Source: Candidatus Ryanbacteria bacterium RIFCSPHIGHO2_02_FULL_48_12
GTDB lineage: Bacteria; Patescibacteriota; Minisyncoccia; Ryanbacterales; 2-02-FULL-48-12
Direction: 5' to 3'
Length of the DNA stretch: 46,944 nucleotides
NCBI GenBank assembly: GCA_001819875.1
Contig: MHNR01000012.1
Span: 4,775-51,718 of the forward strand
The notes below the pieces were generated by a model that did not search any database, was not told where the DNA came from, and saw nothing but the letters and a program-made list of their open reading frames with translations. This document shows, piece after piece, positions 959-40,266 of this stretch. The position numbers were made by a program, and so were the translations under genes. How positions within the stretch are numbered: the first letter of the stretch is position 1; each line of letters begins with the position of its first letter.

Positions 959-973
959 TGGTATCATAAAGCT
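959..973 (+). promoter_or_regulatory. Extended -10 promoter, leaderless start of pilin operon
   Basis: TG at 959-960, one base, TATCAT at 962-967, then six bases before the ATG at 974. No Shine-Dalgarno sequence lies between, so the transcript should begin at or next to the start codon. Confidence 0.6.
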
Positions 974-1456: not shown

Positions 1457-1457
1457 T

Positions 1458-1964
1458 ATGCGTGTTTCTACTTCACAAAAAGGATTCGGGATTATTGAGA
1501 TCGTCATCGGGGTTGCTATTATTACGATCTCGCTTTTGGGTGTGATGCTTTCTGCGAAAGTTTCATTTCAAATAATCAGTGAAAACTTGCGCAGAGTCCA
1601 GGCTAATTTTTTGGCCGAGGAGGGAATAGAGGCTCTCAAGTCAATACGTGATGATGGTTGGACGGCGAACATCGTACCGATTACTACGGGGACTGACTAT
1701 CATCTGGTATACGATACGGGTGCCAATGAGTGGACGTTGGTTGCTGGCGCTTTAGCAGATCAAATAGATGGGGTATTTACGCGCACGGTGCAGTTAAATG
1801 CGGTGGATCGCGATGTTGCCAATGGCACACAGGATATTGTGTTTGCAGGGGGCATAGCGGATGCGGGCACGAGAAAGGTTACGGTTACTATCTCTTGGCC
1901 AGGACGATCGGGTACAAAGACGCAGGCTATTTCTACATATATGACAAACATATTTGCCAATTAG
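1458..1964 (+). CDS. Minor pilin, PilV/GspI-like
   Basis: 168 residues. After a nine-residue leader comes G|FGIIEIVIGVAII, a prepilin cleavage site with the usual Glu at +5 and a hydrophobic helix. The segment ANFLAEEGIEALKSIRDDGW is typical of PilV/GspI-like minor pilins. It starts one base after the stop of the preceding pilin and has no own promoter, so it is translated from the operon mRNA. In type II secretion and type IV pili such minor pilins prime fibre assembly. Confidence 0.8.
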   Translation: MRVSTSQKGFGIIEIVIGVAIITISLLGVMLSAKVSFQIISENLRRVQANFLAEEGIEALKSIRDDGWTANIVPITTGTDYHLVYDTGANEWTLVAGALADQIDGVFTRTVQLNAVDRDVANGTQDIVFAGGIADAGTRKVTVTISWPGRSGTKTQAISTYMTNIFAN

Positions 1965-1965
1965 T

Positions 1966-2478
1966 ATGTCTTTACAGCACAGAACATCCAAGAACAGGGG
2001 ATTTACTCTGGTTGAGACGGTGGTCTATATTGCGCTTTTTATTTTGCTTTCTGTCGTGGTGATTGATGCTTTATTCATGACTGCCAAAGTGCTACGCCAT
2101 GCGCGCACCACGCGTGCAGTTACCAGTGCTGGCGAGGCCGCTATGGAACGGATGATCCGTGATATTCGGTTTGGGAGTGCCATTACCACTATCACGGCCG
2201 GCCATCCGGGCACACTCGAGATCACGGGGTATGATCCGGAGACTCTGGCAGAACAGCAGGTCCGGTTTGCTTGGGTAGCAACCTCGATAGGTGGCAAGAT
2301 TCAGGTGACCGAAGGGGCTGCCGCCGCCGAAGATCTTACACCGCCAAGCCTCAATGTCAGCAATCTCGTATTTCGGCAGATTACCTTGGTTACCGGAACG
2401 TATGCGATCAAGATAGAGATGACCGTAAATGGGGTTAATTTTTATGGGACGGCGCTGATGCGGCGTGCATACCAGTAA
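1966..2478 (+). CDS. Minor pilin, PilW/GspJ-like
   Basis: 170 residues, with basic leader and G|FTLVETVVYIALF (site about residue 12), then a hydrophobic helix. The soluble part has the pattern seen in GspJ/PilW proteins (AAMERMIRDIRFG, a helix that packs on the pilin core). ATG 1966 is preferred over an in-frame codon at 1954 because only the later start gives a normal-length leader; it lies one base after the upstream stop. Part of the four-gene pilin operon. Confidence 0.78.
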   Translation: MSLQHRTSKNRGFTLVETVVYIALFILLSVVVIDALFMTAKVLRHARTTRAVTSAGEAAMERMIRDIRFGSAITTITAGHPGTLEITGYDPETLAEQQVRFAWVATSIGGKIQVTEGAAAAEDLTPPSLNVSNLVFRQITLVTGTYAIKIEMTVNGVNFYGTALMRRAYQ

Positions 2479-2491
2479 TCAATTCATATAT

Positions 2492-4513
2492 ATGTATTTT
2501 GTACGCATACAGAGACAATCGCTCAACCATGGACAGGCGGCACTCACGGTAGTAATATTTTTCTTATTTATATCTCTGACGATGATGTTTGGTTTTGCCG
2601 CACTCGCGGTTGAGAACGAGATAAAAGTGCGTGGCGATGTGCAGGCCAAGGAGTCTTATTTTTTGGCAGAGGCTGGCATCGAGGATGTGGGATATCGCAT
2701 TATTCAAAATATGGCTTACGATACAAGCGAGACTATCTCTTTGGTCTCCGGCGGTCCAAGTGCTACAAGTAATGTCTCTGATGTAGGGCTTACCGAAAAA
2801 AGCATCGTTTCTACGGGTGATGTTTCCAGTGCATTTCGCAAGGTGAGTCTCAATCTCCGTCCAGGCGCAGGCACTTCACTTAATTATGGAGCCCAATCAG
2901 GGTATTTGGGCATCGTGCATCAAGACACGCCGGTTATCAATGGGAGTATATTTAGTAATGGCAGTGTGGTACGGGCCGCTGTTAGCAATAGAATTACTAT
3001 AAACGGGGATCTCCATGTGGCGAGCTCGACACTTGATGCTTCCCAACAGAATCTTGCAGATGTATTGAAAACAGCACAGCCCACCCCATCGCCAGGCACC
3101 CTCCCTCCCTATACGTTTAATGTGCGCAGGTTTGCCGGTCATCAGGACATGGCGCAGTCTTTCATGGTCAATCGCACCGGAGTGATCAGAAAAGTCGAGA
3201 TATATATGAGAAAAGTTGGTACGCCATCTAGTTTTGATCTTACCCTGGTAGAGGATGTGAGCAACGGAGTCGGTAGTAGTAAACCAGATAACAATGGTGC
3301 GCTATTCGATGCTTCATTTACCCATACAGCAGTCTCAACCAATTTTGACTGGGTGGAGTTTGATATTGGTAGAGGACAAAATCCGGTATACCCTGGCCGC
3401 AAGTATTGGTTGATTTTGAGTACACCGAGTAGTACCGATACGAGCAACTACTATATTGTGGGTGGTGGTGGACCGGCTACCTATACAGCAAGCTCCTCGG
3501 CCGAGATGCTGTTTACCGCAGACTGGAGTTCTGGGAGTGCTGTTTGGTCTCCCTACAATGATACGGGGGATGTATCCGGTTCGTTGCCACGGCCGGGGGA
3601 TGAGGCATTTAAGGTATTTTTTGGTGATGTAGAGTTTGCCGGTACGGATTTTTACACCGGAGATATTCACAGCACGATCAACCATGTGATTACTACAGGC
3701 GATACGGTGGGCTACAAGATAAAAGGGTCTATTGTGGGTAATGATGCGACGGATGAAGCGTACTATGAGGTAGACGGTGGTAGTAATACATGGGGTAGCA
3801 CCCAAAAAAACCCCCCGAGCGGTACGCCGACCACCGTCCATCCCACGCCGCTTCCCGCACCAATCTCTCTTACAAAAATCGATGAGCTGATTACCGAGGT
3901 AGAAGCTAGCGCCACATGTAATAATATCCCGGCAAGTTTTGCGACCCAGCGTGCCAATTGTATCGCGGGTGATGATGTTGATTTTAACAATGCCAATGTG
4001 ACGCTCACGGGCCCGGTAGTGTTCCCTGCGGATCTTACGATACGGGGAAGTACGACGTTCACCATGCATGATCCGGGCACGGGTGGTAATATCTATGTCA
4101 AAGGAGATCTCGACATCGGTACGGCTGCTGCTTGTACAATTCGGCTTGATTCATCATTTGGGGCGAGTAGTGGTACTATCGTCGCCGAGGGACCGGTAGA
4201 CGTAAGTATTTGCACATTTTCCGGAAGCGGTAATTCTGATTCGTTTATGGTTATCATTGGTTTGAGTAAAAATTTTACGACCCCTAACGCAGTGGCGGTA
4301 CACACCAATAGTCTCACCGGTGGGGTATTCTACGCGGCAAAAGGCTTCCTAACTATCCGTGATGCGCCTGATCCCTATGCCCTTTTTGGCGAGGGGGTGT
4401 TTGTTGAGGCGAGCTCGGTCATTAATTACCAGGCAGGTCTTGCGAATCTTGATTTTCGTGCTGGACCGGTAGGGGGGTGGGAGCTTGATAACTCTTGGAA
4501 AGAAATAGAGTGA
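2492..4513 (+). CDS. PilX-like pilus protein with large extracellular region
   Basis: About 673 residues. The N-terminus has one hydrophobic segment (roughly residues 16-38) followed by YFLAEAGIEDVGYRI, the region seen in PilX-type minor pilins that lack a classical cleavage motif. Residues ~200-360 form a jelly-roll-like region with W/F/G-rich strands (SFMVNRTG, WVEFDIG, YWLILSTPSS) like exported carbohydrate-binding or 'choice-of-anchor' modules. The remainder is rich in Thr, Ser and Gly with beta-helix character. It contains the sequence NNPPSGTPTTVHPTPLP-like Pro/Thr linker around residue 440. An earlier ATG-proximal start at 2465 is possible and overlaps the previous gene. Probably the tip or adhesive subunit of the pilus. 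Confidence 0.65.
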   Translation: MYFVRIQRQSLNHGQAALTVVIFFLFISLTMMFGFAALAVENEIKVRGDVQAKESYFLAEAGIEDVGYRIIQNMAYDTSETISLVSGGPSATSNVSDVGLTEKSIVSTGDVSSAFRKVSLNLRPGAGTSLNYGAQSGYLGIVHQDTPVINGSIFSNGSVVRAAVSNRITINGDLHVASSTLDASQQNLADVLKTAQPTPSPGTLPPYTFNVRRFAGHQDMAQSFMVNRTGVIRKVEIYMRKVGTPSSFDLTLVEDVSNGVGSSKPDNNGALFDASFTHTAVSTNFDWVEFDIGRGQNPVYPGRKYWLILSTPSSTDTSNYYIVGGGGPATYTASSSAEMLFTADWSSGSAVWSPYNDTGDVSGSLPRPGDEAFKVFFGDVEFAGTDFYTGDIHSTINHVITTGDTVGYKIKGSIVGNDATDEAYYEVDGGSNTWGSTQKNPPSGTPTTVHPTPLPAPISLTKIDELITEVEASATCNNIPASFATQRANCIAGDDVDFNNANVTLTGPVVFPADLTIRGSTTFTMHDPGTGGNIYVKGDLDIGTAAACTIRLDSSFGASSGTIVAEGPVDVSICTFSGSGNSDSFMVIIGLSKNFTTPNAVAVHTNSLTGGVFYAAKGFLTIRDAPDPYALFGEGVFVEASSVINYQAGLANLDFRAGPVGGWELDNSWKEIE

Positions 4514-4566
4514 TGCCGCGTCTTCATATGGGTGCACTTTGTGTAGGATAGCCAATTTATCACTAA

Positions 4567-4578
4567 TATATACACGTT
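4567..4578 (+). promoter_or_regulatory. -10 box for leaderless SIMPL gene
   Basis: TATATA at 4567-4572 is followed by six bases and ATG 4579, repeating the spacing seen at many genes in this window. No ribosome binding site is present. Confidence 0.45.
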
Positions 4579-5388
4579 ATGATGGAGACAAAAATAAAAA
4601 ACTATCTGGGTATTGCGGCAATTATCGTCTTATTCGCTTTTGCGCTTGCGGCATTGAGTTACGTAAATACCTACTCTAAGTCTGTACAGCCTTCGTCTTT
4701 TCGAAGCTTTACCGTTTCTGGCGAGGGTAAGGTGGTGGCGGTCCCGGATGTTGCAGGGTTTAGCTACCAGGTGATCACTCAGGGTGGGACAGATGTCACT
4801 TCGCTACGCCAGGAAAATACCAAAAAGTCTAACGATATTATCCAATTTCTCAAGGATAATGGAGTAGACAAAAAAGATATTCAGACAACAGGACTTATGA
4901 TTCAGCCGCGCTACCAGACCTACGCCTGCGATTATCGGAGTGTCACGCCAGGCGGGTCCGCTCCCCAGCCTTGTCCGCCGGCATCTATCGCGGGGTACGA
5001 GATTATACAGTCGGTTTCAGTAAAAGTTCGCGACTTTGAAAAATCAGGCACTATCTTGGGAGGCATTGCCGATAAGGGGGCTAACTCCGTCTCACAGCTT
5101 AACTTCACTATAGACGATCCAACCAAGCTTCAAGATCAGGCCCGAGAGGAGGCGATTGCAAACGCCAAAGAAAAGGCTTCGGCGATTGCGAAAGCCGGAG
5201 GATTTGGTTTGGGCAAACTCCTCAATATTCAGGAGGGGTATGGACCGACGCCATATTTTTATACCAAAGACGCCTATGGGAGGGGTGGCGAGGGTATTGC
5301 CGCGCCGGCCGTAGCTGAAGCGCCGGTGATTGAGCCGGGTTCGCAGGAGATTCGTTTGAGTGTCTCGCTTACCTACGAGATTCGCTAG
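4579..5388 (+). CDS. SIMPL domain (DUF541) protein, membrane anchored
   Basis: 269 residues: one transmembrane helix at ~9-29, then a SIMPL/DUF541 domain beginning with the family hallmark F..SGEGKV.A.PD (residues ~44-58) and containing IQTTGL.IQPRY. The family includes periplasmic oxidative-stress proteins (YggE) and BP26 ring-forming antigens; the molecular role is unsettled. Topology implies the domain lies outside the cytoplasmic membrane. Single gene between its own promoter and a bidirectional terminator. Confidence 0.85.
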   Translation: MMETKIKNYLGIAAIIVLFAFALAALSYVNTYSKSVQPSSFRSFTVSGEGKVVAVPDVAGFSYQVITQGGTDVTSLRQENTKKSNDIIQFLKDNGVDKKDIQTTGLMIQPRYQTYACDYRSVTPGGSAPQPCPPASIAGYEIIQSVSVKVRDFEKSGTILGGIADKGANSVSQLNFTIDDPTKLQDQAREEAIANAKEKASAIAKAGGFGLGKLLNIQEGYGPTPYFYTKDAYGRGGEGIAAPAVAEAPVIEPGSQEIRLSVSLTYEIR

Positions 5389-5402
5389 GGAAGTTTACAA
5401 AT

Positions 5403-5438
5403 AAAAATCCCCGTGTATTACGGGGATTTTTATTTTTT
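5403..5438. terminator. Bidirectional rho-independent terminator
   Basis: AAAAATCCCCGT, a five-base loop and ACGGGGATTTTT form a 12-bp perfect stem flanked by A and T runs on both sides. It serves the SIMPL gene on plus and polX on minus; the polX stop codon lies within the T run. Confidence 0.9.
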
Positions 5439-7163
5439 AAGGAACGTGCGAAGTTTTTTAAGTGGCCAGGCGTTAATAATATCTTTTTTTGTTGCCCAAC
5501 CGCGTCGGGCAGTGGCGACACCAAACTCAAGCACCGAAAATTGATTGGCCGCATGAGCATCCGAGTCAATGGACATTTTTACTCCTGCTTGGACGCATGC
5601 ACGGATATATGCGTCTTTGAGATCCAAGCGTTCAGGATGGGCATCGATCTCCAGAATCGTCCCGGTGCGTTTGGCGGTTTTGATGATGGCGTCCATACCG
5701 AGTTCTATCGGTTCGCGTTTGTTGATGATGCGTCCCGTAGGATGAAATAATATATCCACGTGAGGGTTCTCCATGGCACGTATCACACGTTTTGTTTGAT
5801 CTATCTCTGAAAGATTAAAATTGCTGTGTACCGCGGCACCCACGATGTCGAGTTGCATAAGAGTAGGGTCATCAATATCGAGCGAGCCGTCTTTTAGGAT
5901 ATTCACCTCGGCGCCTTTCAAAAGAACGATACGGTGTCCGGTGGCTTGTAGTTTTTTCTGTATCCGGTCGATTTCCGCTATTTGCCGCAGAAGTTTTTTC
6001 TCGTCTGATCCGCCGGTCATTGCAAGACTCTGGGTATGATCGGTGATAGCAATGTACTCAAGTCCGGCCTCTTCAGCTGCAAGCGCCATTGCTTCGATGG
6101 AGTCCTCTCCGTCGGTCCAATCGGTCTGGGTCTGCAGATCTCCCCGCAAATCTCCGTAGTTGATAAGTTTGGGGAGCTTATGCTGGCGCGCGGCTTCTAT
6201 CTCCCCGGTCATCTCGCGCATCTCTGGCTCAATATAGTCTAGTCCTAGAGCTTTATAGAGCTCCTCCTCGGTGCGGCCGGTAATGCGTTTTACTCCTTTG
6301 TACAGTCCATACTCATTGAGCTTTAGGTTTTTTTTTATCGCAATCTCACGTAGTGCGATATTATGCTCTTTTGATCCGGTAAAATAATTGAGTGCTGCAC
6401 CAAATGATTCCTCTGGTACAACGCGTAGATCTGCGTCCATGCCATTTTTAAGGCGCACCAGAGTTTTGGCCGGACCCTGGGCATAAATATGCGCTACCAT
6501 AGGAAGTCTGGCAAATTGCCCCATAGCATGTGCTGGGTCTTGGGCAACGGCAATCATATCGATATCGCCGATAGTCTCTTTGCGACGGCGCAGAGAGCCT
6601 GCTAGTACCACATGCTCTATCCCGGGGAATGATGCGATCATGCGCTTGAGCACCTCGGCGTCGTGCCACGCTTCCCCGAGGGATTTTCGTCCGCCAGATT
6701 TTTTGAGAAACGTTATACCTTTCTGGATTTTGTCCTGTGATTTTTGCCCAAAGTGGGGGAGTGTACGGATCTTACCTACACGCACCGCGGTCTCCAGATC
6801 CTTGAGATTTTTTACCCGGAGCTTATCCCAAAGCGTTTTTATCATTTTTGGTCCCACGCCCTCAATTTGGAGGAGTTCGCTGACACGTACGGGGATTTTT
6901 TTCTTGAGGCGTTTATGTTCGGCAAAATCCCCCTTGGTGATGATGTCTTTGATATGTTCGGCAATGCCTTTCCCTACGCTTGGTATCTCCAAAAGGCCGT
7001 CTATACCATGCTCGCGGTATACAGATGCTATATCTTTGTCAGATGACTCTACGGCAAGCGCGGCACGTTCAAATGCGCGAGGTTTAAAAGCCACGCCCTC
7101 CATCTCCAGAAGCGCGCCTGTCTCGAATAATAGATCGGCTATTTCCTTGTTGCTTGCGACCAT
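5430..7163 (-). CDS. polX: DNA polymerase X family protein with PHP domain
   Basis: 577 residues, normal for bacterial PolX. Order: N-terminal 8-kDa-like region with two helix-hairpin-helix motifs (IPSVGKGIAEHI ~60-71, IEGVGPKMI ~99-107), polymerase palm with GSLRRR (189) and GDID (199-202) plus a third acidic site MDADLR (~242-247), then a C-terminal PHP domain. Bacterial PolX fills gaps in base-excision repair and the PHP domain gives 3'-5' exonuclease and end-processing activity. The first PHP metal motif, normally H/Q-x-H, reads Q-T-Q (344-346), while later ligands (ITDH, GAEVN, AAVHSNF, LFHP, DSDAH) remain. On the minus strand an extended -10 (TGC TACCAT) lies 6 bases before the ATG, so a leaderless mRNA is expected. 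Confidence 0.93.
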   Translation of the reverse strand: MVASNKEIADLLFETGALLEMEGVAFKPRAFERAALAVESSDKDIASVYREHGIDGLLEIPSVGKGIAEHIKDIITKGDFAEHKRLKKKIPVRVSELLQIEGVGPKMIKTLWDKLRVKNLKDLETAVRVGKIRTLPHFGQKSQDKIQKGITFLKKSGGRKSLGEAWHDAEVLKRMIASFPGIEHVVLAGSLRRRKETIGDIDMIAVAQDPAHAMGQFARLPMVAHIYAQGPAKTLVRLKNGMDADLRVVPEESFGAALNYFTGSKEHNIALREIAIKKNLKLNEYGLYKGVKRITGRTEEELYKALGLDYIEPEMREMTGEIEAARQHKLPKLINYGDLRGDLQTQTDWTDGEDSIEAMALAAEEAGLEYIAITDHTQSLAMTGGSDEKKLLRQIAEIDRIQKKLQATGHRIVLLKGAEVNILKDGSLDIDDPTLMQLDIVGAAVHSNFNLSEIDQTKRVIRAMENPHVDILFHPTGRIINKREPIELGMDAIIKTAKRTGTILEIDAHPERLDLKDAYIRACVQAGVKMSIDSDAHAANQFSVLEFGVATARRGWATKKDIINAWPLKKLRTFLKK

Positions 7164-7194
7164 ATCGCTATGGTAGCAGACTGCGCTCCATTTG

Positions 7195-7223
7195 TTGACT
7201 TTTCATACATTTTTCTGTACAAC
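7195..7223 (+). promoter_or_regulatory. Canonical -35/-10 promoter
   Basis: TTGACT (7195-7200), 17 bases, TACAAC (7218-7223). It gives a leader of about 28 bases with a ribosome binding site, unlike the divergent leaderless polX promoter next to it. Confidence 0.6.
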
Positions 7224-7257
7224 GCAGGCAGATTATGTCTTTACAAAAGGAGCATAT

Positions 7258-7863
7258 ATGCCTATACCAGAGGAGCTACAAGAGTTTCTTCACCTCGGCA
7301 CAGAGTCGCGGCCGGAGGCGGAAGCGGCGGCTTTGGCACGTTTACTCTGCGATAAAACAAAGGGGGATAAAATTTGTTGGATACCAAGGTATACTTCTGA
7401 TGGGTATGAGATATGGAGTGCGTTAATTGCAGATGCACTAGCCATTGAAACAGTCGAGAAAGATTCTGAAGGCAATACATTGCTTATCCAAGTGCCACGT
7501 ATTTCTGTGCACATAGGCGTCATGCGTGTTGCCTCTCTCGCGGGCGCATTACGGGGACTTACTGGCGGGCAAAATCCAGCTCTCGAATTTTTATGTGTAG
7601 CTGATTTTGGTGATAGCACCCACGGTGTTCTTCTCACTGACCCAAGTCCGTTTTGCGCTTTATTAAGCGGCAAGGAGCAACGCTTGCTCCTTATGAGCCA
7701 TAGAGAGGTTCTCACTCTCTATGTAGAGATGAAAGTACAGATGGTCGGGTATAATATTTCGCGGTACCCTTCGAAAGATCCGCCTGCAAAACGCGCCACT
7801 GAATATGCTCCCCAGAGCCCGAGTGAGGCGTTTCGTATGGCGCGCCACTATCTGGAGACCTAG
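7258..7863 (+). CDS. Hypothetical cytoplasmic protein
   Basis: 201 residues, not recognised. The start at 7258 is set by AAAGGAG about seven bases upstream; an earlier in-frame ATG at 7192 lies inside the promoter and is rejected. The protein has no signal peptide or membrane segment and is mixed alpha/beta in character, with a Leu-rich helix (SGKEQRLLLMSHREVLTLYVEMKVQ) near residues 138-162 (given here only as location). It is transcribed alone and followed by its own terminator. It belongs to the Shine-Dalgarno-led set of mostly unknown genes in this window. Confidence 0.65.
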   Translation: MPIPEELQEFLHLGTESRPEAEAAALARLLCDKTKGDKICWIPRYTSDGYEIWSALIADALAIETVEKDSEGNTLLIQVPRISVHIGVMRVASLAGALRGLTGGQNPALEFLCVADFGDSTHGVLLTDPSPFCALLSGKEQRLLLMSHREVLTLYVEMKVQMVGYNISRYPSKDPPAKRATEYAPQSPSEAFRMARHYLET

Positions 7864-7887
7864 ACAACTTGCTGGTTTGTGTAGCGT

Positions 7888-7913
7888 AGCCTCTTTACAA
7901 AAGAGGCTTTTTG
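7888..7913 (+). terminator. Rho-independent terminator
   Basis: AGCCTCTT, short loop and AAGAGGCT followed by TTTTTG, directly after the hypothetical gene ending at 7863. Confidence 0.85.
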
Positions 7914-7952
7914 TTTGCAAAATTTTTGATTCAGGTGTATACTTTTTTGGTT

Positions 7953-9365
7953 ATGAAACATATCTCAAAGAAAAAAGTAAAGATTGTAGCTACACTCGGT
8001 CCCGCCTCCGGCTCGGCCGATATGATAAAAGCGCTCGCCAAAGAGGGCGTCAATGTATTTCGCATTAATATGTCGCATTGCCCCAAGCCCGAGGTCTTAG
8101 AGCGTGTCAAACGCATTCGGGCTGTGGAGCGCGAGCTGGGAGTACCACTCTCTATTATGGGGGATCTTATGGGTCCCAAGATTCGTATTGGTGACGTAGA
8201 GCCGGGAACCGAGCTTGCAGTAGGGGGAGAGATTTGTATTGGAGCAAAAGCTGTGCGCGGTACTGCCAAAGAAATATCGCTTAATTTTCCTACCATTCTT
8301 AAGAGCCTAAAAGCCGGTAATGAGATTTATATCGGAGATGGTCAGATAAAGCTCATAGTCAAAAAAACTATTCCCGGTGGCGTGCTTGCCACAGTGGCTG
8401 TTGGCGGGCCACTTCTCTCGCGCAAAGGATTTTCCGCGCATGGCATGACGCTCAAGCACATGGCGCTTACCAAAAAAGACCGCGAGGATACTGCGACTCT
8501 TATCGAAGCGGGAGCGGACGCGATTGCTATTTCTTTTGTCCAAGGTCCCAAAGATGTTGAAGCTATCCGCAATTTGTTACCCAAAAAGAATCCGCCGTTT
8601 CTCTTGGCTAAAATCGAGACACAGTCTGGCGTGGATCACGCGGATAAGATTTTGGATGTGGCGGACGGTCTTATGGTAGCGCGGGGTGACCTTGGACTCT
8701 CGGTGCCGATGGCGGATGTGCCACATATCCAAAAACGGCTTATCGCGCTTTGTCTCAAACGTGCCAAGCCGGTAGTGACGGCGACCCAGATGCTCGACTC
8801 TATGGCTTCCCGTCCTATCCCAACGCGTGCAGAGGTGACGGATGTTGCCAATGCCATCTTGGATGGTACGGACGGGGTGATGCTTTCCGATGAGACGGCA
8901 ACTGGCAAGTTTCCAGTGGAGGTGATACGCACTATGGTAAGTATTATTGAGCGTGCTACATCGGAGATAGGCAAGCGCTATTTCCCCGAGGATACTTCTA
9001 TCGCCGGAGCTATTGGGGCTTCCGTGGTGCGTGTAGCAGAGCAAATTGGTGCCAAGCTCATCGTAGTGATGACGGAGAAAGGCGTGACCGCGCGGCGCAT
9101 CGCACGGCACCGCCATATGCAGCCGATTATAGCTCTCTCCCCGCACCTAGAGACCTTGCGCCGACTCAATTTTTCTTGGGGTGTATATGGCTATCGCGTG
9201 CCAGTCATGAAGAGTGCCGATGATCTTTTGCTCCAGACCAAAAAAATCGCCAAAGCAAATGATATCATGTCTCTCAAAGAGGGGGATCTCTTTGTGGTAA
9301 GTGCCAGTATCCCATTTGGGGGAGCATCTGGTACGACTAATCTTGCGCTTGCCCAAAAAGTTTAG
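7953..9365 (+). CDS. pyk: Pyruvate kinase
   Basis: 470 residues, the usual length. It converts phosphoenolpyruvate and ADP to pyruvate and ATP in the cytoplasm. Visible family signatures: KIVATLGPAS at the N-terminus, RINMSH for nucleotide/metal binding, the active-site strand FLLAKIET with the catalytic Lys and Glu, LMVARGDLGL, and ATQMLDSM..RPIPTRAEVTD with DGVMLSDETATG. The C-terminal regulatory domain is present (~residues 345-470). The start at 7953 places the methionine just before the conserved N-terminal strand and lies 9 bases after TATACT; no Shine-Dalgarno sequence. Confidence 0.95.
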   Translation: MKHISKKKVKIVATLGPASGSADMIKALAKEGVNVFRINMSHCPKPEVLERVKRIRAVERELGVPLSIMGDLMGPKIRIGDVEPGTELAVGGEICIGAKAVRGTAKEISLNFPTILKSLKAGNEIYIGDGQIKLIVKKTIPGGVLATVAVGGPLLSRKGFSAHGMTLKHMALTKKDREDTATLIEAGADAIAISFVQGPKDVEAIRNLLPKKNPPFLLAKIETQSGVDHADKILDVADGLMVARGDLGLSVPMADVPHIQKRLIALCLKRAKPVVTATQMLDSMASRPIPTRAEVTDVANAILDGTDGVMLSDETATGKFPVEVIRTMVSIIERATSEIGKRYFPEDTSIAGAIGASVVRVAEQIGAKLIVVMTEKGVTARRIARHRHMQPIIALSPHLETLRRLNFSWGVYGYRVPVMKSADDLLLQTKKIAKANDIMSLKEGDLFVVSASIPFGGASGTTNLALAQKV

Positions 9366-9415
9366 CGCGTAGATTCTTGGTTTGGTACCACGATATTCTC
9401 TGCTACTATGGTGGT

Positions 9416-9682
9416 ATGAGTACCAAACGCATCATCTACATCTCTCTTTTTGTCCTGCTCGGCATATTGCTCCAATTTGTGGCACATGCGGTGCTTGAGA
9501 TTTGGTATATCGGTCTTCTTCTCAATGATTTCGAGCGATATGGACTCGGGCTTAGCTGGGAGGTATGGGTGCAAATCCATAGTGTACTCTCTTTTGTATT
9601 TTTAGCGCTCGGGGTGCTCTTTGGCTACCAGCAAGGGAAACACTGGTGGCAGAAGATTTATATTGAACATGCCTATCGATGA
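9416..9682 (+). CDS. Small two-helix membrane protein
   Basis: 88 residues with two hydrophobic helices (~6-28 and ~52-72) and a basic C-terminus. Not assigned to a family. Extended -10 TGC TACTAT lies six bases before the ATG, so it starts leaderless. Its stop overlaps the start of the tRNA-binding protein gene by ATGA, implying translational coupling of the pair. Confidence 0.65.
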   Translation: MSTKRIIYISLFVLLGILLQFVAHAVLEIWYIGLLLNDFERYGLGLSWEVWVQIHSVLSFVFLALGVLFGYQQGKHWWQKIYIEHAYR

Positions 9683-34205: not shown

Positions 34206-34496
34206 ATGGAGGAGACAACGCAATCTCATAGTAGTTCTTGGCTCGCGTACGCCATTATTGCTCTTTTGGTGGGCGGGGGTGCCGGGTTTTGGTTTGGGCA
34301 AGAAATAGGGAGAGAGGCAGGATATGCGCGCGCAGAGGCTGAGATTTTAGAAAATGCCGCTTTGGTAGAGCGTGCTCGTGCGGCAGATAACGCTGACACC
34401 GCGACTCAAAATCCATTGGCGGAGGTAAAAACAAATCCTTTGGAAGGCGTGAAGACCAATCCATTTGAGGATGTAAAGCTTAATCCTTTTGAATAA
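34206..34496 (+). CDS. Membrane protein with NP(L/F)xxVK repeats
   Basis: 96 residues: transmembrane helix ~12-32, a charged helix, then a repeated C-terminal unit NPLAEVKT / NPLEGVKT / NPFEDVKL / NPFE (residues ~68-96). The repeats probably form an extended linear binding region. It ends two bases before the Cys-rich protein gene, with which it is co-transcribed; the two may work together at the cell surface. TATACT at 34171 may serve as -10. Confidence 0.7.
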   Translation: MEETTQSHSSSWLAYAIIALLVGGGAGFWFGQEIGREAGYARAEAEILENAALVERARAADNADTATQNPLAEVKTNPLEGVKTNPFEDVKLNPFE

Positions 34497-34497
34497 T

Positions 34498-36180
34498 ATG
34501 CAATCCCACTATCGTCTCTTGCTGGGATCAGGCCTTGTGGCCGTGGCTGTTGCGTTTGGTGTAGCGGGAGGGGTGATCGCGCAATCAGATACCGCTTCTT
34601 CTACAGGGCCGACACCAGCAATAACATTTCCTATTGCCGATCTTGGTAATTGTGAGTCAAAAACTGCGTGCAAAGCGTATTGCAATGCTCCAGAGCATGT
34701 AAACGCCTGTGTCCTGTTTGGAGAAACACACGGTCTTATGACGCATGAGAATACATTGCGTGTACGAAAGATAAAGGATCTTATTGGCCCGGGTGGATGC
34801 AAAGGAGGGGCGTGTAAAGAATATTGCAGTGTGGATGAACATCGCGATGCGTGCCTTCAGTTTGCCGAAGAGCACGGGCTTATGAAAAAAGAAGAGCTGG
34901 AACGTGCGCACAAGCTCGGGTCCAAACCTGGCCCGGGCGGATGCCGCGCCGAAGCATGCAAAACATACTGTGCGGACGAGGAACATCGGGACGAATGCCT
35001 CAAGTTCGCCGAAGAAAATGGATTTATATCTAAAGGTGAGGCGGATGTTGCGCGTAAGCTTGGCGGCAGACCGGGTCCCGGCGGGTGCGCGGGGGAGGCG
35101 TGCAGGGAGTACTGTGCCGACGAGACGCATACCGAAGAGTGTTTGCAATTTGCAGAGGAGCATCAGCTCATCTCTTCGGAGGACATTGCTCAAGCTCGTA
35201 AGCTTATGGGGCAATCTGGTCCGGGTGGATGTCGGGGCCTGGAATGTCGAACGTATTGTGCTGATGCCGCACATAAAGAAGCGTGTCTGAAGTTTGCCGA
35301 AGAGCATGGCATAATCTCCAAAGAAGACCATGAGAACGCAAAAGATCTTTTAAGTGGATCTGGCCCGGGTGGATGCAAAGGAGAGGCGTGCAAAATATAT
35401 TGTGCTGATGAGAATCATTTTGAGGCATGCGCCAAGTTTGCGCGAGAGCGGGGATTTGCAAATGATGACGATATTGATACCGCACGAAAACTCATTGAGG
35501 GTTCTGGCCCCGGCGGGTGCAAAGGTGTCGAGTGCCGGGCGTATTGCGCGGATCCGGCGCACCGTGAGGCGTGTGTGGCATTTGCCCGCGAGCATGGACT
35601 TATGCGTGCGCGGGAGGTACGTTTACCCGAAAAAATGCCGGGGCGGATGCTCAAAGATGGGGAGGTGCCGGAGGATTATACTCCTGAATTTAAAGAGAGT
35701 GAGTATCAGGGTCCGGGAGGATGCGCGACACGCGAGGCGTGCGCGACATACTGCGCGGATCCAATACATAAAGAGGAATGCGCCGGTTTTAGCGGGCCGA
35801 GCGCTGCGGATCGCGCCAAGCGTTTTCGCGAGAAGTCCCCAAGTGTGGTACCAAAAATGAATACGGATGAGCGATCAGGTGGCCCGGGCGGGTGTCAAAC
35901 TCCGGAGGCGTGTCTTACCTATTGCAAGGAGCATGCGGATGATGAGGCGTGCAAAAAGTTTTTCCCCAGGGAGATCCAGGGGATATTCCGTGAGCAAATG
36001 ATGGAGGATGAGGCGCGAGCCCGGGAGATGCAAAAAGAACGGCAAGAACGCATGATGGAAGAACAAAAGCGACAAGAGTCAGAGCGGCGGGGTTTATTTA
36101 TGCCGCTCCCACCATCGGCACCACCGTCAGAAAGTGGCGCTTCGCCATTCTCGTTATTCTTCAAATTACTGGGTCTCTAG
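34498..36180 (+). CDS. Secreted Cys-rich tandem-repeat protein
   Basis: 560 residues: signal peptide ~1-29 (cleavage near VIAQS), then nine copies of a ~48-residue unit with the core GPGGC-x4-C-x3-YC-x8-C-x2-FAEEHG. Units 2 to 6 are nearly regular, unit 1 lacks GPGGC and units 7 to 9 have longer spacers. Four Cys per unit suggest two disulfides each. A Met/Arg/Glu-rich tail and a hydrophobic C-terminus end the protein. Probably exported and disulfide-bonded; the DsbA-like protein at 18494 could catalyse this. Function unknown: surface layer, adhesin or metal binding are options. Confidence 0.8.
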   Translation: MQSHYRLLLGSGLVAVAVAFGVAGGVIAQSDTASSTGPTPAITFPIADLGNCESKTACKAYCNAPEHVNACVLFGETHGLMTHENTLRVRKIKDLIGPGGCKGGACKEYCSVDEHRDACLQFAEEHGLMKKEELERAHKLGSKPGPGGCRAEACKTYCADEEHRDECLKFAEENGFISKGEADVARKLGGRPGPGGCAGEACREYCADETHTEECLQFAEEHQLISSEDIAQARKLMGQSGPGGCRGLECRTYCADAAHKEACLKFAEEHGIISKEDHENAKDLLSGSGPGGCKGEACKIYCADENHFEACAKFARERGFANDDDIDTARKLIEGSGPGGCKGVECRAYCADPAHREACVAFAREHGLMRAREVRLPEKMPGRMLKDGEVPEDYTPEFKESEYQGPGGCATREACATYCADPIHKEECAGFSGPSAADRAKRFREKSPSVVPKMNTDERSGGPGGCQTPEACLTYCKEHADDEACKKFFPREIQGIFREQMMEDEARAREMQKERQERMMEEQKRQESERRGLFMPLPPSAPPSESGASPFSLFFKLLGL

Positions 36181-36249: not shown

Positions 36250-36278
36250 TTGACAAATATATACTAAAGATGTATAAT
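36250..36278 (+). promoter_or_regulatory. Perfect consensus promoter of the small-gene cluster
   Basis: TTGACA (36250-36255), exactly 17 bases, TATAAT (36273-36278). It is the strongest promoter in the window and precedes a 220-base structured leader. Confidence 0.85.
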
Positions 36279-36284
36279 GTTGAC

Positions 36285-36505
36285 AGTAAATTAAAAAGTT
36301 TGCTTGAGGGAGGAGAGACCCAAAGGCAAACATAGTTTGATGAGATATGAGCGGTTAGGTCGTCTCTCCTCGAGGCACTGCAATTATATATTATAATCAT
36401 TTGCAGTTGTGCCTCATGTGAGGAGTGGCGTCCCAACCGCTTTTTTCGTAAGGCGGTGATCGTTCTTTGAATAGACAAGAAAAAACTTAGATAAGGGGGG
36501 TTCGT
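36285..36505 (+). promoter_or_regulatory. Structured leader with terminator/antiterminator and boxA-like site
   Basis: GAGGAGAGAC (36310-36319) pairs with GTCTCTCCTC (36362-36371); GAGGCAC (36372-36378) with GTGCCTC (36409-36415). AGCGGTT (36350-36356) pairs with AACCGCT (36435-36441) right before six T's, a terminator. The same ACCGC can instead pair with GCGGT (36453-36457), an alternative without termination. The first and third pairings cross or compete. GTTCTTTGA at 36462-36470 looks like a Nus-factor boxA. This resembles an attenuator or riboswitch; no ligand class was recognised. Confidence 0.65.
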
Positions 36506-36772
36506 ATGTCAGCAAATTGGACTAGAGCTTTTTTGGGAAGTCCGAAGCGATTTTTAATGAGTTTGGCTGGTCTGTGGTTTCTCATTCACTGGGCAGATCC
36601 CATGGCGGCAAGAACTATCTTGCACGGACTGTTTGCCCAAGTGGGACTTGGCGCAAATGCTGTGCTTCAGGAAGCACAGCCGATGTTCCAGCCGTTGATT
36701 GCCGTTGCTATTCTGTGGTTTGCCTTTACCCGGCTTATACCCTGGCCCGGACGAGCTAAGAAGAAAAAATAA
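36506..36772 (+). CDS. Small membrane protein of the cluster
   Basis: 88 residues with two hydrophobic segments (~13-30 and ~60-77) and a very basic end (GRAKKKK). TAAGGGGGG precedes the ATG. Not recognised. First gene behind the consensus promoter and the structured leader. Confidence 0.65.
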   Translation: MSANWTRAFLGSPKRFLMSLAGLWFLIHWADPMAARTILHGLFAQVGLGANAVLQEAQPMFQPLIAVAILWFAFTRLIPWPGRAKKKK

Positions 36773-36790
36773 GTTTTTTGTCTGACATTT

Positions 36791-36900
36791 GGAGAGCATC
36801 AAAATCTGTTACAGTATCCGATATGATGTTCTCCTCCATCTCTAGGCTTATGAGATAGGCTCGCAAGTCTAGACTGTGGATTGTTCTTTACGAAAAACAA
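36791..36900 (+). repeat. Hairpin-hairpin-boxA element, copy 1
   Basis: Hairpin a: GGAGAGCATC (36791-36800) with GATGTTCTCC (36825-36834). Hairpin b: TCTAGGCTT (36841-36849) with AAGTCTAGA (36865-36873), loop containing ATAGGCTCGC. Then GACTGTGG and boxA-like GTTCTTTA (36883-36890), AAAAACAA. Copy 2 shares this layout and much of the sequence. Confidence 0.75.
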
Positions 36901-36913
36901 AGAGAGGTGTATT

Positions 36914-37309
36914 ATGGCTTTTGATCCAGATATGAACGTATTGGTAGTCGATGTTGCCGCAACTATGCGGCGCATCATGCGCGCGATGTTGCGCGAATTG
37001 GGGGTTAAGAACGTGCGTGAGGCCGAGGATGGCGATATGGCACTCGCGGATCTGAAGCGCTACCATGGATCTGGTGTAAAAACGGACTTAGTAGTGTCGA
37101 ATTGGGCGATGCCCAAGACGGATGGCATCGAGCTACTCCGTGCGATTCGTCAGGATGAAGCATTGAAAGAAATCCCTGTGCTCCTGGTGACCGCAGAATC
37201 GAGAAGAGAAAATATCATGGAGGCCATCCAAGCCGGAGTGAGCGGCTATATCGTTAAGCCGTTTAATTCCAAAACCTTGGAGGAAAAGATTAACAAGATT
37301 TTTAAATAG
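36914..37309 (+). CDS. CheY-like receiver with Asn at the phosphorylation site
   Basis: 131 residues, very similar in layout to CheY of chemotaxis. The first acidic pair reads VVDVAATMRR, so only one Asp remains (V14 replaces the second). The acceptor strand reads LVVSNWAMPKTDG, with Asn63 in place of the phosphorylated Asp. The switch Thr (LLVTAESRRENIMEA, Thr93) and Lys115 (YIVKPF) are kept. It probably cannot be phosphorylated and may be locked as a scaffold or competitor. Start at 36914 follows GAGAGG; the longer frame is rejected. Confidence 0.85.
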   Translation: MAFDPDMNVLVVDVAATMRRIMRAMLRELGVKNVREAEDGDMALADLKRYHGSGVKTDLVVSNWAMPKTDGIELLRAIRQDEALKEIPVLLVTAESRRENIMEAIQAGVSGYIVKPFNSKTLEEKINKIFK

Positions 37310-37316
37310 ACTCACC

Positions 37317-37400
37317 GGAGAGTGCGTCGCACTCTCCTCCATTCCCAGACCCACGAAATAGGCTCGCAGGTCTGGACTGTGGAAGTTCTTTGGCAAAAAC
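37317..37400 (+). repeat. Hairpin-hairpin-boxA element, copy 2
   Basis: Hairpin a: GGAGAGTGC, three-base loop, GCACTCTCC (37317-37337). Hairpin b: CCAGACC (37345-37351) with GGTCTGG (37369-37375). Then GACTGTGG and GTTCTTTGG (37385-37393), AAAAACAA. Compared with copy 1, three stem b pairs differ on both arms but still pair, which supports an RNA structure. Confidence 0.78.
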
Positions 37401-37458
37401 AACACTATCTCTGATGTCCAAAAAGGAAATCAGAACATCAGAAGATATAGGGGGTTAT

Positions 37459-38220
37459 ATGTTGAAGCGTTTTGTAGTAGTATCTTTTCTGGTAGTCTCG
37501 GTTTTTCAAATCGTTGCCCTAGCAAATGCGGGGCAGACAGAGGAAGAGCGTACAGCACTGGTGAAGAAATTGCACGATCAGGAGGTGGCTAGTGCTAAAA
37601 CTGCCTGGGATATCGTCCTAGGCAAAAAGGACTCTATCGGGGAGGAGGCGGAGCCAGACTGGGTAGGCGAGGCAAAGTCTGGCAAACAAGATGCCGTTTT
37701 TGCCACCATAATGACCGCCTGTGATGACTACTGGCGGTTCCAAAAGGGTAAGTACCTGGAGGAGCTTTTCGCAGGTGTCTATACTCAAAAGGTGGAGGTT
37801 CATGAGGTATTAGACAAGCTGACCCTGCCTGTTGTGCACTCGGTTGTCGAGAAACTTGGCTTGCAGGTGGCAAGTGGTATGCTTGCAACGATGAAGGCAC
37901 AAGGAAAAAGTGTGTATTGCGGTATCGGTGAAGGAGCTTTTGACCTTGGTACATTTACCGCTTTTGACTCCATGGTAGAGGTTTTAAAATACCTCAAAAA
38001 GGAGCCCAAAAATATAAAGACCACACCAGAGGAGCTTCGCGGATTGCTCCTGAAAGCGGTAAGAAAAGAGACCATCGAGCTTGCAAGTCGCTTGGCGGAC
38101 TCGGAGGATGCTAGGGGGGTAGTCAATGGCTTTCTTGAGGAGTATAATTTTACTCCAGAGGAGCTCGGGCTCTCTCCCGCCCAGCAACAGGATTTGGAGG
38201 AAGCCACTAAACAACAATAA
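37459..38220 (+). CDS. Secreted hypothetical protein
   Basis: 253 residues with a signal peptide (~1-25: basic start, FVVVSFLVVSVF, then ALANA cleavage site). The mature part is charged and mostly helical, with a Gln-rich end, and matches no family known to me. ATG 37459 follows AGGGGG; the longer frame from 37390 would hide the signal peptide. Likely acts outside the membrane. Confidence 0.7.
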   Translation: MLKRFVVVSFLVVSVFQIVALANAGQTEEERTALVKKLHDQEVASAKTAWDIVLGKKDSIGEEAEPDWVGEAKSGKQDAVFATIMTACDDYWRFQKGKYLEELFAGVYTQKVEVHEVLDKLTLPVVHSVVEKLGLQVASGMLATMKAQGKSVYCGIGEGAFDLGTFTAFDSMVEVLKYLKKEPKNIKTTPEELRGLLLKAVRKETIELASRLADSEDARGVVNGFLEEYNFTPEELGLSPAQQQDLEEATKQQ

Positions 38221-38227
38221 CCCAACC

Positions 38228-38331
38228 GGAGAGTGCGTCGCGCTCTCCTCTATTTCCCGATTCATCAAATTTTATGTGGTGAGTCGAGACTGTAGGGTTT
38301 GCTCTGATAGCAAAAATAAATCAGTTCTTTA
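38228..38331 (+). repeat. Hairpin-hairpin-boxA element, copy 3
   Basis: Hairpin a: GGAGAGTGC, loop, GCGCTCTCC (38228-38248), almost identical to copy 2 with a T-A pair changed to T-G. Hairpin b: CGATTCA with TGAGTCG. Then GACTGTAGG, GCTCTGATAG (38301-38310) and a second boxA-like GTTCTTTA (38324-38331) leading into AAGGAGG. Confidence 0.7.
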
Positions 38332-38345
38332 TAAGGAGGGTTATC

Positions 38346-38462
38346 ATGACGTGGGAGCAATGTCTTTTTATGGTATTTATCATACTCACTCTTTGTATTG
38401 TTCCGGCTATTATTTTTGCTTGTCTATGCCGGCGCGCAAGCAAAAAAAGTGAGGCGGCATAG
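38346..38462 (+). CDS. 38-residue membrane protein
   Basis: 38 residues: MTWEQ, one hydrophobic helix (residues ~7-27) with three Cys, and a basic tail (RRASKKSEAA). AAGGAGGG lies ten bases before the ATG. Too short for family assignment; supported by the strong ribosome binding site and its place in the cluster. Confidence 0.6.
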   Translation: MTWEQCLFMVFIILTLCIVPAIIFACLCRRASKKSEAA

Positions 38463-38494
38463 AGATAATCCAACAAAAAGAAAGGAGGAGTAGT

Positions 38495-38632
38495 ATGCTA
38501 CTGCTTACAGTCCTGGTACTTAGTTGTCTCGCCTTGTTCGGCGCCATAATTGCTATCAATCGATTTGAGCGCCGGCAAAATGCCAGGGTATCGGCGGAAG
38601 CTCTCAAAAACGAGTACCCGAGCGACTACTAA
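38495..38632 (+). CDS. 45-residue membrane protein
   Basis: 45 residues with one helix (LLLTVLVLSCLALFGAIIAI, ~2-21) and a charged tail (RFERRQN..). AAAGGAGGAG precedes the ATG. Together with its neighbour it forms a pair of tiny single-span proteins. Confidence 0.6.
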   Translation: MLLLTVLVLSCLALFGAIIAINRFERRQNARVSAEALKNEYPSDY

Positions 38633-38645
38633 CCCACCTACAATA

Positions 38646-38750
38646 GGGGAGTTCTCAACTCCCCGCTTCAAATAGGCTTTCAAAGTATACACACCCTTGA
38701 AAACCTGGAGAGGCGGTATACAATAAAGTCAAATTAGATTTCTTTGCAAG
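38646..38750 (+). repeat. Hairpin-boxA element, copy 4 (divergent)
   Basis: Hairpin a: GGGGAGTT, loop, AACTCCCC (38646-38664). A weaker second fold uses TTTCAA/TTGAAA (~38678-38702). AAATAGGC recalls the loop of copies 1 and 2. TTTCTTTGCAAG (38739-38750) is boxA-like and abuts AAAGGAG. Confidence 0.55.
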
Positions 38751-38765
38751 AAAGGAGATAGTTGT

Positions 38766-38996
38766 ATGATCGACCGATCGCATAGCGGTTTTCGTGTGCA
38801 CACACTCCGTTTCGTGCGCACGGTCAAGGGCGATCTCTCGCCCGGTACCCAAGGTACTATTGTCTACGAGACGGAGAGTCTTGGGCGCCAGCTCGTACTT
38901 ATAGATTGGGATGCGGGGTTTTCGGTTCCCGCGTTCCCGGATGAGATAGAAATCGAGGACAGGAAGGATGAGGTCCAAGATGGTCGCCCCGCATAA
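38766..38996 (+). CDS. Hypothetical small beta-rich protein
   Basis: 76 residues, probably a small beta-barrel: HTLRFVRTVKGDLSPGTQGTIVYE (two strands), then GRQLVLIDWDAGFSVPAFPDEIEIED. The pattern G-T-x-G-x-V-x-E-x(n)-G-R-x-L-x-x-x-x-W-x-x-G recalls short proteins annotated near redox genes, but I cannot assign a family. AAAGGAG lies before the ATG. Confidence 0.6.
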   Translation: MIDRSHSGFRVHTLRFVRTVKGDLSPGTQGTIVYETESLGRQLVLIDWDAGFSVPAFPDEIEIEDRKDEVQDGRPA

Positions 38997-39002
38997 TTTT
39001 TT

Positions 39003-39125
39003 AGAGGAGGATATGGCAATCCTCCTCTCTGCTCCCGAACCCGTGAGCGTGTCTCATGAGTTCAGGCTGCGGAATGCAGTCTTGCTCTTTGATAGATTTT
39101 GGGAGTTCTGCGAAAGCAAAAACAA
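39003..39125 (+). repeat. Hairpin-hairpin-boxA element, copy 5
   Basis: Hairpin a: AGAGGAGGAT (39003-39012) with ATCCTCCTCT (39019-39028). Hairpin b: CC.GAAC (~39034-39040) with GTTC.GG. Then GGCTGCGG and GCTCTTTGATAGA (39084-39096), the closest match to bacterial boxA, followed by GTTCTGCG and AAAAACAAAAA. Confidence 0.68.
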
Positions 39126-39151
39126 AAACTCTCAAAATAGAGGAGGATGGA

Positions 39152-39376
39152 ATGGTGGTAAAAGCTGTGGCGGTGTTGCTGTTGGATGGTTTCGTGGGGG
39201 TAATCACTTTGAGTGTTCTGAAAATTTTCGGCAAGAAGTTTTATTTGCCGGAAACCAATCTCTGCCCTCTGATAGAGATATCAGCTCGGGAAGCTTTTCG
39301 ATTGCAGATAGCCGAGAGGATGGATAGCATCCGCACCAATCAAAGGATACGGAGTACAAAGTATATCTGTAGATAA
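39152..39376 (+). CDS. Small membrane protein of the cluster
   Basis: 74 residues: hydrophobic N-terminal helix (~3-24), then a charged segment with a Lys/Arg-rich end. GAGGAGG precedes the ATG at 39152; overlapping frames in other phases are rejected. Not recognised. Confidence 0.6.
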   Translation: MVVKAVAVLLLDGFVGVITLSVLKIFGKKFYLPETNLCPLIEISAREAFRLQIAERMDSIRTNQRIRSTKYICR

Positions 39377-39384
39377 CAACATTC

Positions 39385-39412
39385 CTACAGATAAGCGCAC
39401 GCTTATCTGTAG
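39385..39412 (+). repeat. Perfect hairpin between cluster genes
   Basis: CTACAGATAAGCG and CGCTTATCTGTAG pair over about 12 bp with a tiny loop. It replaces hairpin a of the other spacers and lies just ahead of AGGAGG. Confidence 0.7.
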
Positions 39413-39434
39413 CGCCCTTGTAGGAGGTACGTTG

Positions 39435-39719
39435 ATGGGGGAAGACGAGCCACGACCACGCAAGCTTCGGTATGTTCCTGGGGGGGATTGTCAGGCATGC
39501 GAGTTGCCGGGATACCGTAACAGGTTTTGTCGGCAATGCGGTTGGCGAGGCGAGCCAAAATGTGAAAAATGCGGCGGCTATACAGCTGCCAAAAAGTTTT
39601 ATACATTTATGGACTTGCCGCAAGGCAAGGAGGATCGCCGATGTCTCTGCGGCATCGCTACCAGTTTGGAATTACCACAGCCTGTGTTGAGGAGGAGGGA
39701 ACAGCGTGTTGCCGCTTAG
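39435..39719 (+). CDS. Zinc-ribbon-like protein
   Basis: 94 residues with three CxxC pairs (CQAC ~19-22, CRQC ~33-36, CEKC ~44-47) and a later CLC; likely two zinc ribbons, cytoplasmic. The rest is Arg-rich. TAGGAGG lies seven bases before ATG 39435. Its end overlaps the next gene by 14 bases, a sign of coupled translation. Confidence 0.65.
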   Translation: MGEDEPRPRKLRYVPGGDCQACELPGYRNRFCRQCGWRGEPKCEKCGGYTAAKKFYTFMDLPQGKEDRRCLCGIATSLELPQPVLRRREQRVAA

Positions 39720-40050
39720 ACGTGTGTTGGTAGTCGAGGATTACCTGGGGATCGCACGCGCGATTCTCCAGGAGTTGCAAGAGATGGGCGCTGTGGTGTG
39801 TGAAGCACCAGACTGGCTTTCTGGCCAGAGGATCTTACGAGATCAAGAGGGGGTACAGCTTCTAGTGCTCGATATCGATACCACTGGTCTCGAGGTCATG
39901 GATGAGATACCCACGGGATTCCCTGTGGTAGTGATCTCGGATGGTCTCTATGATATTCCAGAGCGGGATCATCTTGCACACATCGAAAAGCCGTTTAGCT
40001 TAAGTGATTTTACCCAAGCGCTTATCAATGCCATGTCCCACCAAAAGTAG
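39706..40050 (+). CDS. Response-regulator receiver domain protein
   Basis: 114 residues, a stand-alone receiver. LVVEDYLG supplies the acidic pair, LLVLDIDTTGLEV the phosphoacceptor Asp (~54-56), VVVISDG a Ser switch residue, and IEKPFSL the Lys. Unlike the two other receivers in this window it has all key residues, so it could accept phosphate, for example from the kinase at 29901. GTG start at 39706 after GAGGAGGAGGGA. Confidence 0.8.
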   Translation: MLPLRRVLVVEDYLGIARAILQELQEMGAVVCEAPDWLSGQRILRDQEGVQLLVLDIDTTGLEVMDEIPTGFPVVVISDGLYDIPERDHLAHIEKPFSLSDFTQALINAMSHQK

Positions 40051-40117
40051 GCGGGCGATATTCTATCCTCCTACTTTTCTTATAATCCAGCATCTCTACG
40101 GTACCGGACTATAAGAA
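40043..40117 (+). repeat. Two hairpins closing the cluster
   Basis: AAAAGTAGG (40043-40051) pairs with CCTACTTTT (40070-40078); TTCTTATA (40077-40084) with TATAAGAA (40110-40117). The first includes the receiver stop codon. Layout resembles the hairpin a / hairpin b pairs upstream. Confidence 0.6.
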
Positions 40118-40119
40118 GA

Positions 40120-40266
40120 GTTTTGCCGCCAGACGGCTGCATATCTTTATATGTAAGGCAGACGTAAGGAGTTATTCTCTTCCCTTGCGTCTATCGAGCA
40201 TCATTGGGTCTGTAGCCTTGTGGCGGTATCTTATGTACACGCCTCTTTTCGGGGCGTGTTTTGTTT
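40120..40266 (+). ncRNA. Candidate multibranched RNA with terminator
   Basis: CCGCCA (40126-40131) and TGGCGG (40221-40226) close a domain with CATAT/ATATG, GACGTAAGG/CCTTGCGTC (40161-40169, 40183-40191) and GGCT/AGCC stems. ACACGCC/GGCGTGT (40237-40259) plus TTTTGTTTT follows as a terminator. TATAAT at 40081 might be a promoter, but it is also part of a hairpin. No known RNA family identified. Confidence 0.6.

Follow-up and report, generated by a model that had tools for sequence, protein, structure and literature searches.

Repeated tandem-hairpin RNA elements separate the genes of a small-gene unit in Candidatus Ryanbacteria bacterium RIFCSPHIGHO2_02_FULL_48_12, and the same element, with covarying structure, recurs in co-oriented clusters in related genomes. 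The window in which it was noticed (the whole stretch of DNA analysed here, 46,944 nucleotides of contig MHNR01000012.1) belongs to a genome of 0.99 Mb, and our analysis confirms the original observation, which extends further than was first noted. We regard the tandem-hairpin element as a real RNA family that is apparently undescribed. No description of it was found in the literature, Rfam at gathering score returned only rRNA and tRNA for the window and ten array loci, and among 240 stretches of viral contigs containing GGATAGTTCTTTGA or GGAAGTAGTTCTTT tandem hairpins were present in none of the 25 best-folding.

The operon-like unit and its spacers

The region encoding p1 to p9 is supported as an operon-like unit on the + strand, running from a perfect -35/-10 promoter (TTGACA-17-TATAAT, 12 of 12 matches, 36250-36278) to the intrinsic terminator that closes it (40237-40259). 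A structured leader of putative function (36285-36505) precedes p1 (88 aa, 36506-36772), a small membrane protein without family match. It is followed by the CheY-like p2 (36914-37309); p3 (253 aa, 37459-38220), whose start resembles a signal peptide and which has no family match; p4 (38 aa, 38346-38462) and p5 (45 aa, 38495-38632), each with a single membrane helix; p6 (76 aa, 38766-38996) and p7 (74 aa, 39152-39376), both without family match; p8 (94 aa, 39435-39719), with zinc-ribbon-like cysteine pairs according to a weak match below the cut-off; and the receiver-like p9 (39706-40050), which overlaps p8. Neither p1 nor p3 has relatives in the genome, viral and family collections searched, and a resemblance of p3 to NusB (E 0.096 over 29 residues) fell below the cut-off and was dismissed as noise. 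The description of p2 as a non-phosphorylatable CheY agrees with its alignment to CheY (E 7e-38), in which Asn replaces the phospho-acceptor (D57N) and the second acidic residue is also substituted (D13V); p9, the proposed intact receiver, is a weak receiver match that keeps the acceptor Asp in place. The two closest loci with CheY-like relatives of p2 (L015 and L016) have neither synteny with the unit nor elements. Directly 5' of the unit, a large cysteine-rich protein with repeats around GPGGCK/R..C..YC is encoded (34489-36180), and the stretch between p9 and the final terminator (40051-40230) forms long stable hairpins without a clear boxA-like motif.

Reading, folding and aligning the sequence identifies four clear copies of the element on the + strand, in the spacers after p1, p2, p3 and p6. 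Hairpin 1, which is GC-rich, begins six to 18 bases after the stop codon and directly abuts hairpin 2 (0-1 base between them). In hairpin 2 a lower and an upper stem, about 17 pairs in all, are separated by a conserved mismatch position; next come AGUUCUUU or a variant of it, an A-rich stretch and the ribosome binding site of the following gene. Copy S1 (36791-36889, spacer 36773-36913) comprises hairpin 1 at 36791-36834, hairpin 2 at 36835-36880 and GTTCTTT at 36883-36889, and copy S2 (37317-37392, spacer 37310-37458) has its hairpins at 37317-37337 and 37338-37383 and GTTCTTTG at 37385-37392. In copy S3 (38228-38330, spacer 38221-38345) the hairpins (38228-38248 and 38249-38296) are accompanied by the variant TTTGCTCTGA (38299-38308) plus AGTTCTTTA (38323-38331), and in copy S5 (39003-39092, spacer 38997-39151) the hairpins at 39003-39028 and 39029-39073 are joined by a small extra hairpin (39064-39082) and the variant motif GCTCTTTGA (39084-39092). 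Hairpin 1 is almost letter-for-letter identical in copies 2 and 3, so duplication accounts for at least part of the array's growth.

The initial annotation had listed five such spacers, each with a boxA-like site. The fifth, S4 (38646-38746, in the spacer 38633-38765 after p5), has the same layout by eye, with a GGGGAG..CTCCCC hairpin 1 (38646-38664), a second stem-loop (38665-38715) and TTCTTTG (38740-38746), but this likeness is loose; S4 was missed by every covariance model and is at best a diverged copy. The motif is likewise clear only after copies 1 and 2, being degenerate or displaced after the others: a weight matrix rates it as strong in S1 and S2 (0.4% and 0.1% of random windows equally good), moderate in the leader, S3 and S4 (1-2%) and weak in S5. 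The p4-p5 spacer (38463-38494) holds no element, and a lone 12-pair hairpin without motif (39385-39412) is not a copy of it.

Conservation of the RNA structure

Aligning hairpin 2 of S1, S2, S3 and S5 (alignment A4) yields 18 aligned pairs in which 88.9% of cells are paired, as opposed to 38.9% at most when the partners are slid. Two-sided changes occur in 8 of the 18 pairs, against 3.9 in shuffles, and covariation reaches 0.593, compared with 0.365 in shuffled alignments (none of 500 as high) and no more than 0.194 in slid ones. Between copies 1 and 2, where three compensated stem changes had been reported, two are full (UA to CG twice), but two others are one-sided. A larger alignment of 58 copies, which was fitted to the model and hence leans towards structure, has 90.5% of its cells paired, against 69.1% after shuffling, and 225 cells with double changes, against 64; its covariation is 0.700 (0.297 shuffled, at most 0.192 slid). 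The picture agrees in 27 trimmed copies aligned with MAFFT, most of which were model-found. Selection on RNA structure, as first proposed, is thus upheld by covariation in the sets of four, 58 and 27 copies. The tandem arrangement also recurs: in 47% of copies, as against 11% of control positions, a hairpin 1 stem with at least nine uninterrupted pairs reaches up to hairpin 2.

Some features of the stem go beyond pairing. Among the 27 trimmed copies, fixed positions keep the identity of the pair (A-U in 25 of 27, G-U in 14 of 27), and these conserved identities point to the sequence probably being recognised as well as the shape; in the 58-copy alignment, moreover, pyrimidines strongly predominate in the 5' arm of hairpin 2. 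G-U pairs outnumber A-C pairs by 137 to 47, or by 55 to 24 when each locus contributes a single copy, an excess partly built in by a search model that takes G-U and refuses A-C; in the four founding copies the counts are just 10 and 7. Sense copies also score higher than their own antisense with a model of hairpin 2 alone (R3, below), a comparison subject to the same model bias. The active form is likely the sense RNA.

Recurrence in related genomes

Three covariance models were used: R1, built from the four window copies of alignment A4; R2, built from copies in G000, G313 and G027 with the motif included; and R3, built from hairpin 2 alone as a guard against circularity on the motif. Within the window's own genome, the only convincing R1 matches are the same four copies. 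Across 384 genomes of the class, R1 finds look-alikes in other families, several of which, when read out, have an abutting hairpin 1, some being then followed by AGTTCTTTG or GTTCCTTG. R2 matches 69 of these 384 genomes at E<=0.05, of which about 19 are expected by chance, since E-values are per genome. The strong point of the recurrence is clustering, as scattered matches almost never cluster in this way: at least two co-oriented R2 matches lie within 5 kb of each other in 12 genomes from nine families (G000, G027, G053, G119, G138, G204, G209, G217, G267, G272, G313 and G323), with two to nine copies each, and nine clustered genomes in seven families remain when the three training genomes are set aside. 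Recurrence in related genomes and covariation beyond the locus had both been set beforehand as tests of the idea, and both were found. In a phylum-wide sample, R2 matches 16 of 380 genomes at E<=0.01; few matches outside the class are convincing, the best being that in G709.

Each copy follows a stop codon, precedes the ribosome binding site of the gene after it and has the same orientation as the genes. At the key locus (L058 of G313), about ten copies separate unrelated small genes, and most of them are followed by TAGTTCTTTGA or a similar string; a second structured spacer of about 170 bases occurs there twice (6660-6840 and 5680-5850), running from the element to the next gene. The proteins of the arrays are short, mostly without families and different between genomes. 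Cysteine-rich zinc-ribbon-like and one-helix membrane proteins are recurring kinds, and one protein family is common to two genomes (L063 and L107, 34% identity), but nothing ties the RNA element to particular array proteins. In G204 (L112, - strand), a small protein weakly similar to STIV B116 (PF08960, E 0.017, below the cut-off) is encoded about 164 bases past an element (8062-8112), and a similar protein start, MPTTYFGF, lies 3' of a match in a genome of another class (G663, L368). The array of G272 (L104, 1849-6400) sits within the order nusB-rnc-rpsP-[array]-KH protein-trmD, and that of G204, which belongs to another family (L112, - strand, 328-9505), a few kb 3' of an RNase III gene; either placement may be due to chance.

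The boxA-like motif and the Nus/Rho machinery

The consensus around UUCUUU in the 27 copies, RANAGUUCUUUNANAAAA, fits the published boxA consensus GYTCTTTAANA, which is gamma-proteobacterial (PMC5725501). The UUCUUU positions were selected and are hence matched by construction; the G before them was not, and it is present in 26 of 27 copies, preceded by A in 20 of 27, with A-rich RNA following the motif. By itself, the word AGTTCTTTG shows no enrichment in the genome (14 occurrences against 11 for the reversed word), so that only the composite element is significant. Of 74 sense hits of R3, 32 have GTTCTTT or GCTCTTT within 110 bases downstream, as compared with 8 in the upstream control and none in antisense; in the 20 R3 hits that R2 did not find, however, the motif is as frequent downstream as in the upstream control (4 of 20 in each). 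The motif is a frequent companion of the element in some lineages and no fixed part of it. It is also absent from the two rRNA leaders that could be read, that of the 16S gene in the window's genome and that of the 23S gene in G006, a genome from the same order, a sample of two in which other rRNA boxA variants are possible. The boxA reading of the initial annotation therefore stands in part: the consensus fits and all 8 of the genomes examined encode NusB, but motif frequency in independently found copies and the two rRNA leaders are against it.

No Rho match exceeded the cut-off in any of 12 genomes, while 8 of 14 controls were positive. The weak matches lie in open frames roughly 460-516 residues long, frequently as a pair on one contig, a pattern that we read as that of ATP synthase subunits. 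With no Rho found, classical boxA action against Rho would be without a target.

Two further observations concern the rRNA genes of this lineage. The 16S rRNA of the window's genome (L043, - strand, around 1501-1525) appears to end in GGAAUUUCUCCUUUU and not in ...CACCUCCUU, an apparently altered anti-Shine-Dalgarno, and its gene is followed by a terminator of its own, with no 23S gene next to it. In G006 (L118, 6054-7200), a small one-element array lies just 3' of the 23S and 5S rRNA genes.

Array leaders

Similar leaders precede several arrays (window 36285-36505; L110 6253-6475; L104 3667-3860; L111, - strand, 5768-5980; L117 5904-6100). Common to them are a nearly perfect promoter, an AGGAGAG-type stretch rich in purines close to the 5' end and a later complementary CUCUCU-type stretch, and in the window, L104 and L111 the AGGAGAG-type stretch lies in a hairpin loop. 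In the window, GAGGAGAGAC (36310-36319, + strand) can pair with GUCUCUCCUC (36362-36371), and this pairing competes with a terminator-like U-tailed stem (36350-36446); the same competition is seen in L110. It makes an attenuator possible, and the array leader may be one. The boxA-like site noted in the window leader is indeed there, as GTTCTTTGAA (36462-36471), with the moderate score given above.

Discussion

We suggest that the tandem-hairpin element is a cis-acting RNA that punctuates the polycistronic messages of small-gene arrays, a reading put forward tentatively, as plausible rather than probable. Hairpin 2 would be recognised by a protein or nuclease; by analogy with known sites, the hairpins might cut, cap and insulate adjacent cistrons, acting as an RNase III-type processing site or as a site protecting 3' ends; and the AGUUCUUU tail, where present, could bind NusB-S10 or a comparable factor while the RNA is still nascent. 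This role is favoured because processing or end protection accounts best for the position of the element, its double hairpin, the conservation of its stem sequence and the absence of Rho; since Rho was found in none of the 12 genomes, untranslated spacers would need no protection from it. RNase III processing sites lie between the early genes of phage T7. These are likewise imperfect hairpins after the stop codons of a series of small genes, but the hairpins described here are tandem, have conserved stem sequence and a boxA-like tail, and their cleavage is only putative. The proximity of arrays to an RNase III gene, within a few kb in two families, is a weak hint of processing. Against punctuation, RNase III can as a rule do without conserved identities of its pairs, a pure processing site offers no evident role for the boxA-like tail, and the sense-strand G-U preference is partly built in by the search model.

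A doubtful alternative is processive antitermination or anti-pausing, in which the hairpins would work on RNA polymerase in the manner of HK022 putRNA, or NusB-S10 would be loaded by the boxA-like tail, allowing polymerase to cross the hairpin-rich array and the terminator-like leader. The putRNA works without any protein, and its suppression extends to intrinsic terminators (PMC9378689). When compared by layout and not by sequence, putL and putR (PMC9378689) resemble the element in having two stem-loops, in about 70 nt (70-90 nt here), the second of which is interrupted in its stem by a mismatch or an unpaired base; the boxA of rRNA leaders and of the suhB leader (PMC5725501) resembles it in GUUCUUU followed by A-rich RNA after a hairpin, and NusB is encoded in the genomes examined; and a terminator-like stem is present within the leader. 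Yet the element differs from put sites in occurring at every spacer, with a boxA-like tail and no identified phage early operon, and a single HK022 put site acts over 10 kb, which would make a copy at every gene redundant. It differs from boxA in sitting between protein genes at many spacers with a motif that is not constant, and the missing Rho, the control-level frequency of the motif in copies found without it and its absence from the two readable rRNA leaders all weigh against antitermination. Promoter- and terminator-like sites within the arrays do not exceed roughly the shuffled expectation, and since most of the hairpins have no proper U tract, the array itself offers little that would have to be read through. 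The notion that the cluster encodes its own antitermination system is not supported, as the cluster proteins are not found where the RNA recurs, the proteins of other arrays differ and NusB is encoded elsewhere; antitermination directed against Rho is unlikely, none having been found in 12 of 12 genomes.

That the elements are leaky terminators is a distinctly improbable reading. Hairpin 1 with the pyrimidine-rich stretch behind it, or hairpin 2 with UUCUUU, would then end part of transcription and create a falling gradient of expression. UUCUUU does lie 0-9 bases past the hairpin in many copies, and in AT-rich genomes the pyrimidine 5' arm of hairpin 2 places CCUUUUUC-like strings after hairpin 1; still, these U tracts are short, interrupted and weak in GC-rich genomes, the conserved G before UUCUUU and the A-rich RNA after it are superfluous for a U tract, a plain terminator has no need of conserved stem sequence in a second hairpin, and the true end of the unit (40237-40259) is a classic terminator of a different kind. 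More remote still is the idea that they are DNA-level recombination sites flanking gene cassettes, functional as folded single-stranded DNA. Like integron attC, the element is a structured, sequence-variable unit after each small array gene; every element is accompanied by one or two small genes specific to the lineage, and the genes of these co-oriented arrays differ by genome. The folded substrate of attC is the bottom strand, however, and here the gene-sense strand pairs better, within the model bias noted above; there are two abutting hairpins instead of one, and RYYYAAC/GTTRRRY end boxes were not seen in the copies read.

Intercistronic punctuation thus remains our preferred role for the element. 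A broader formulation, which we hold to be possible but rather unlikely, is that these Rho-less bacteria possess a system for elongation or processing, built on RNA alone or assisted by Nus factors, in which put-like tandem hairpins with a boxA tail would separate the cistrons of fast-changing small genes under an attenuator-like leader, as a new class of polycistronic RNA punctuation. More generally, the element provides a covariance-supported marker by which small-gene arrays can be found through their spacers and not their proteins, in a large and probably mostly uncultured group of bacteria. If borne out by functional tests, it would reveal the way in which Rho-less bacteria arrange long mRNAs that have structured spacers, and would indicate whether these organisms use NusB and boxA for anything other than rRNA.
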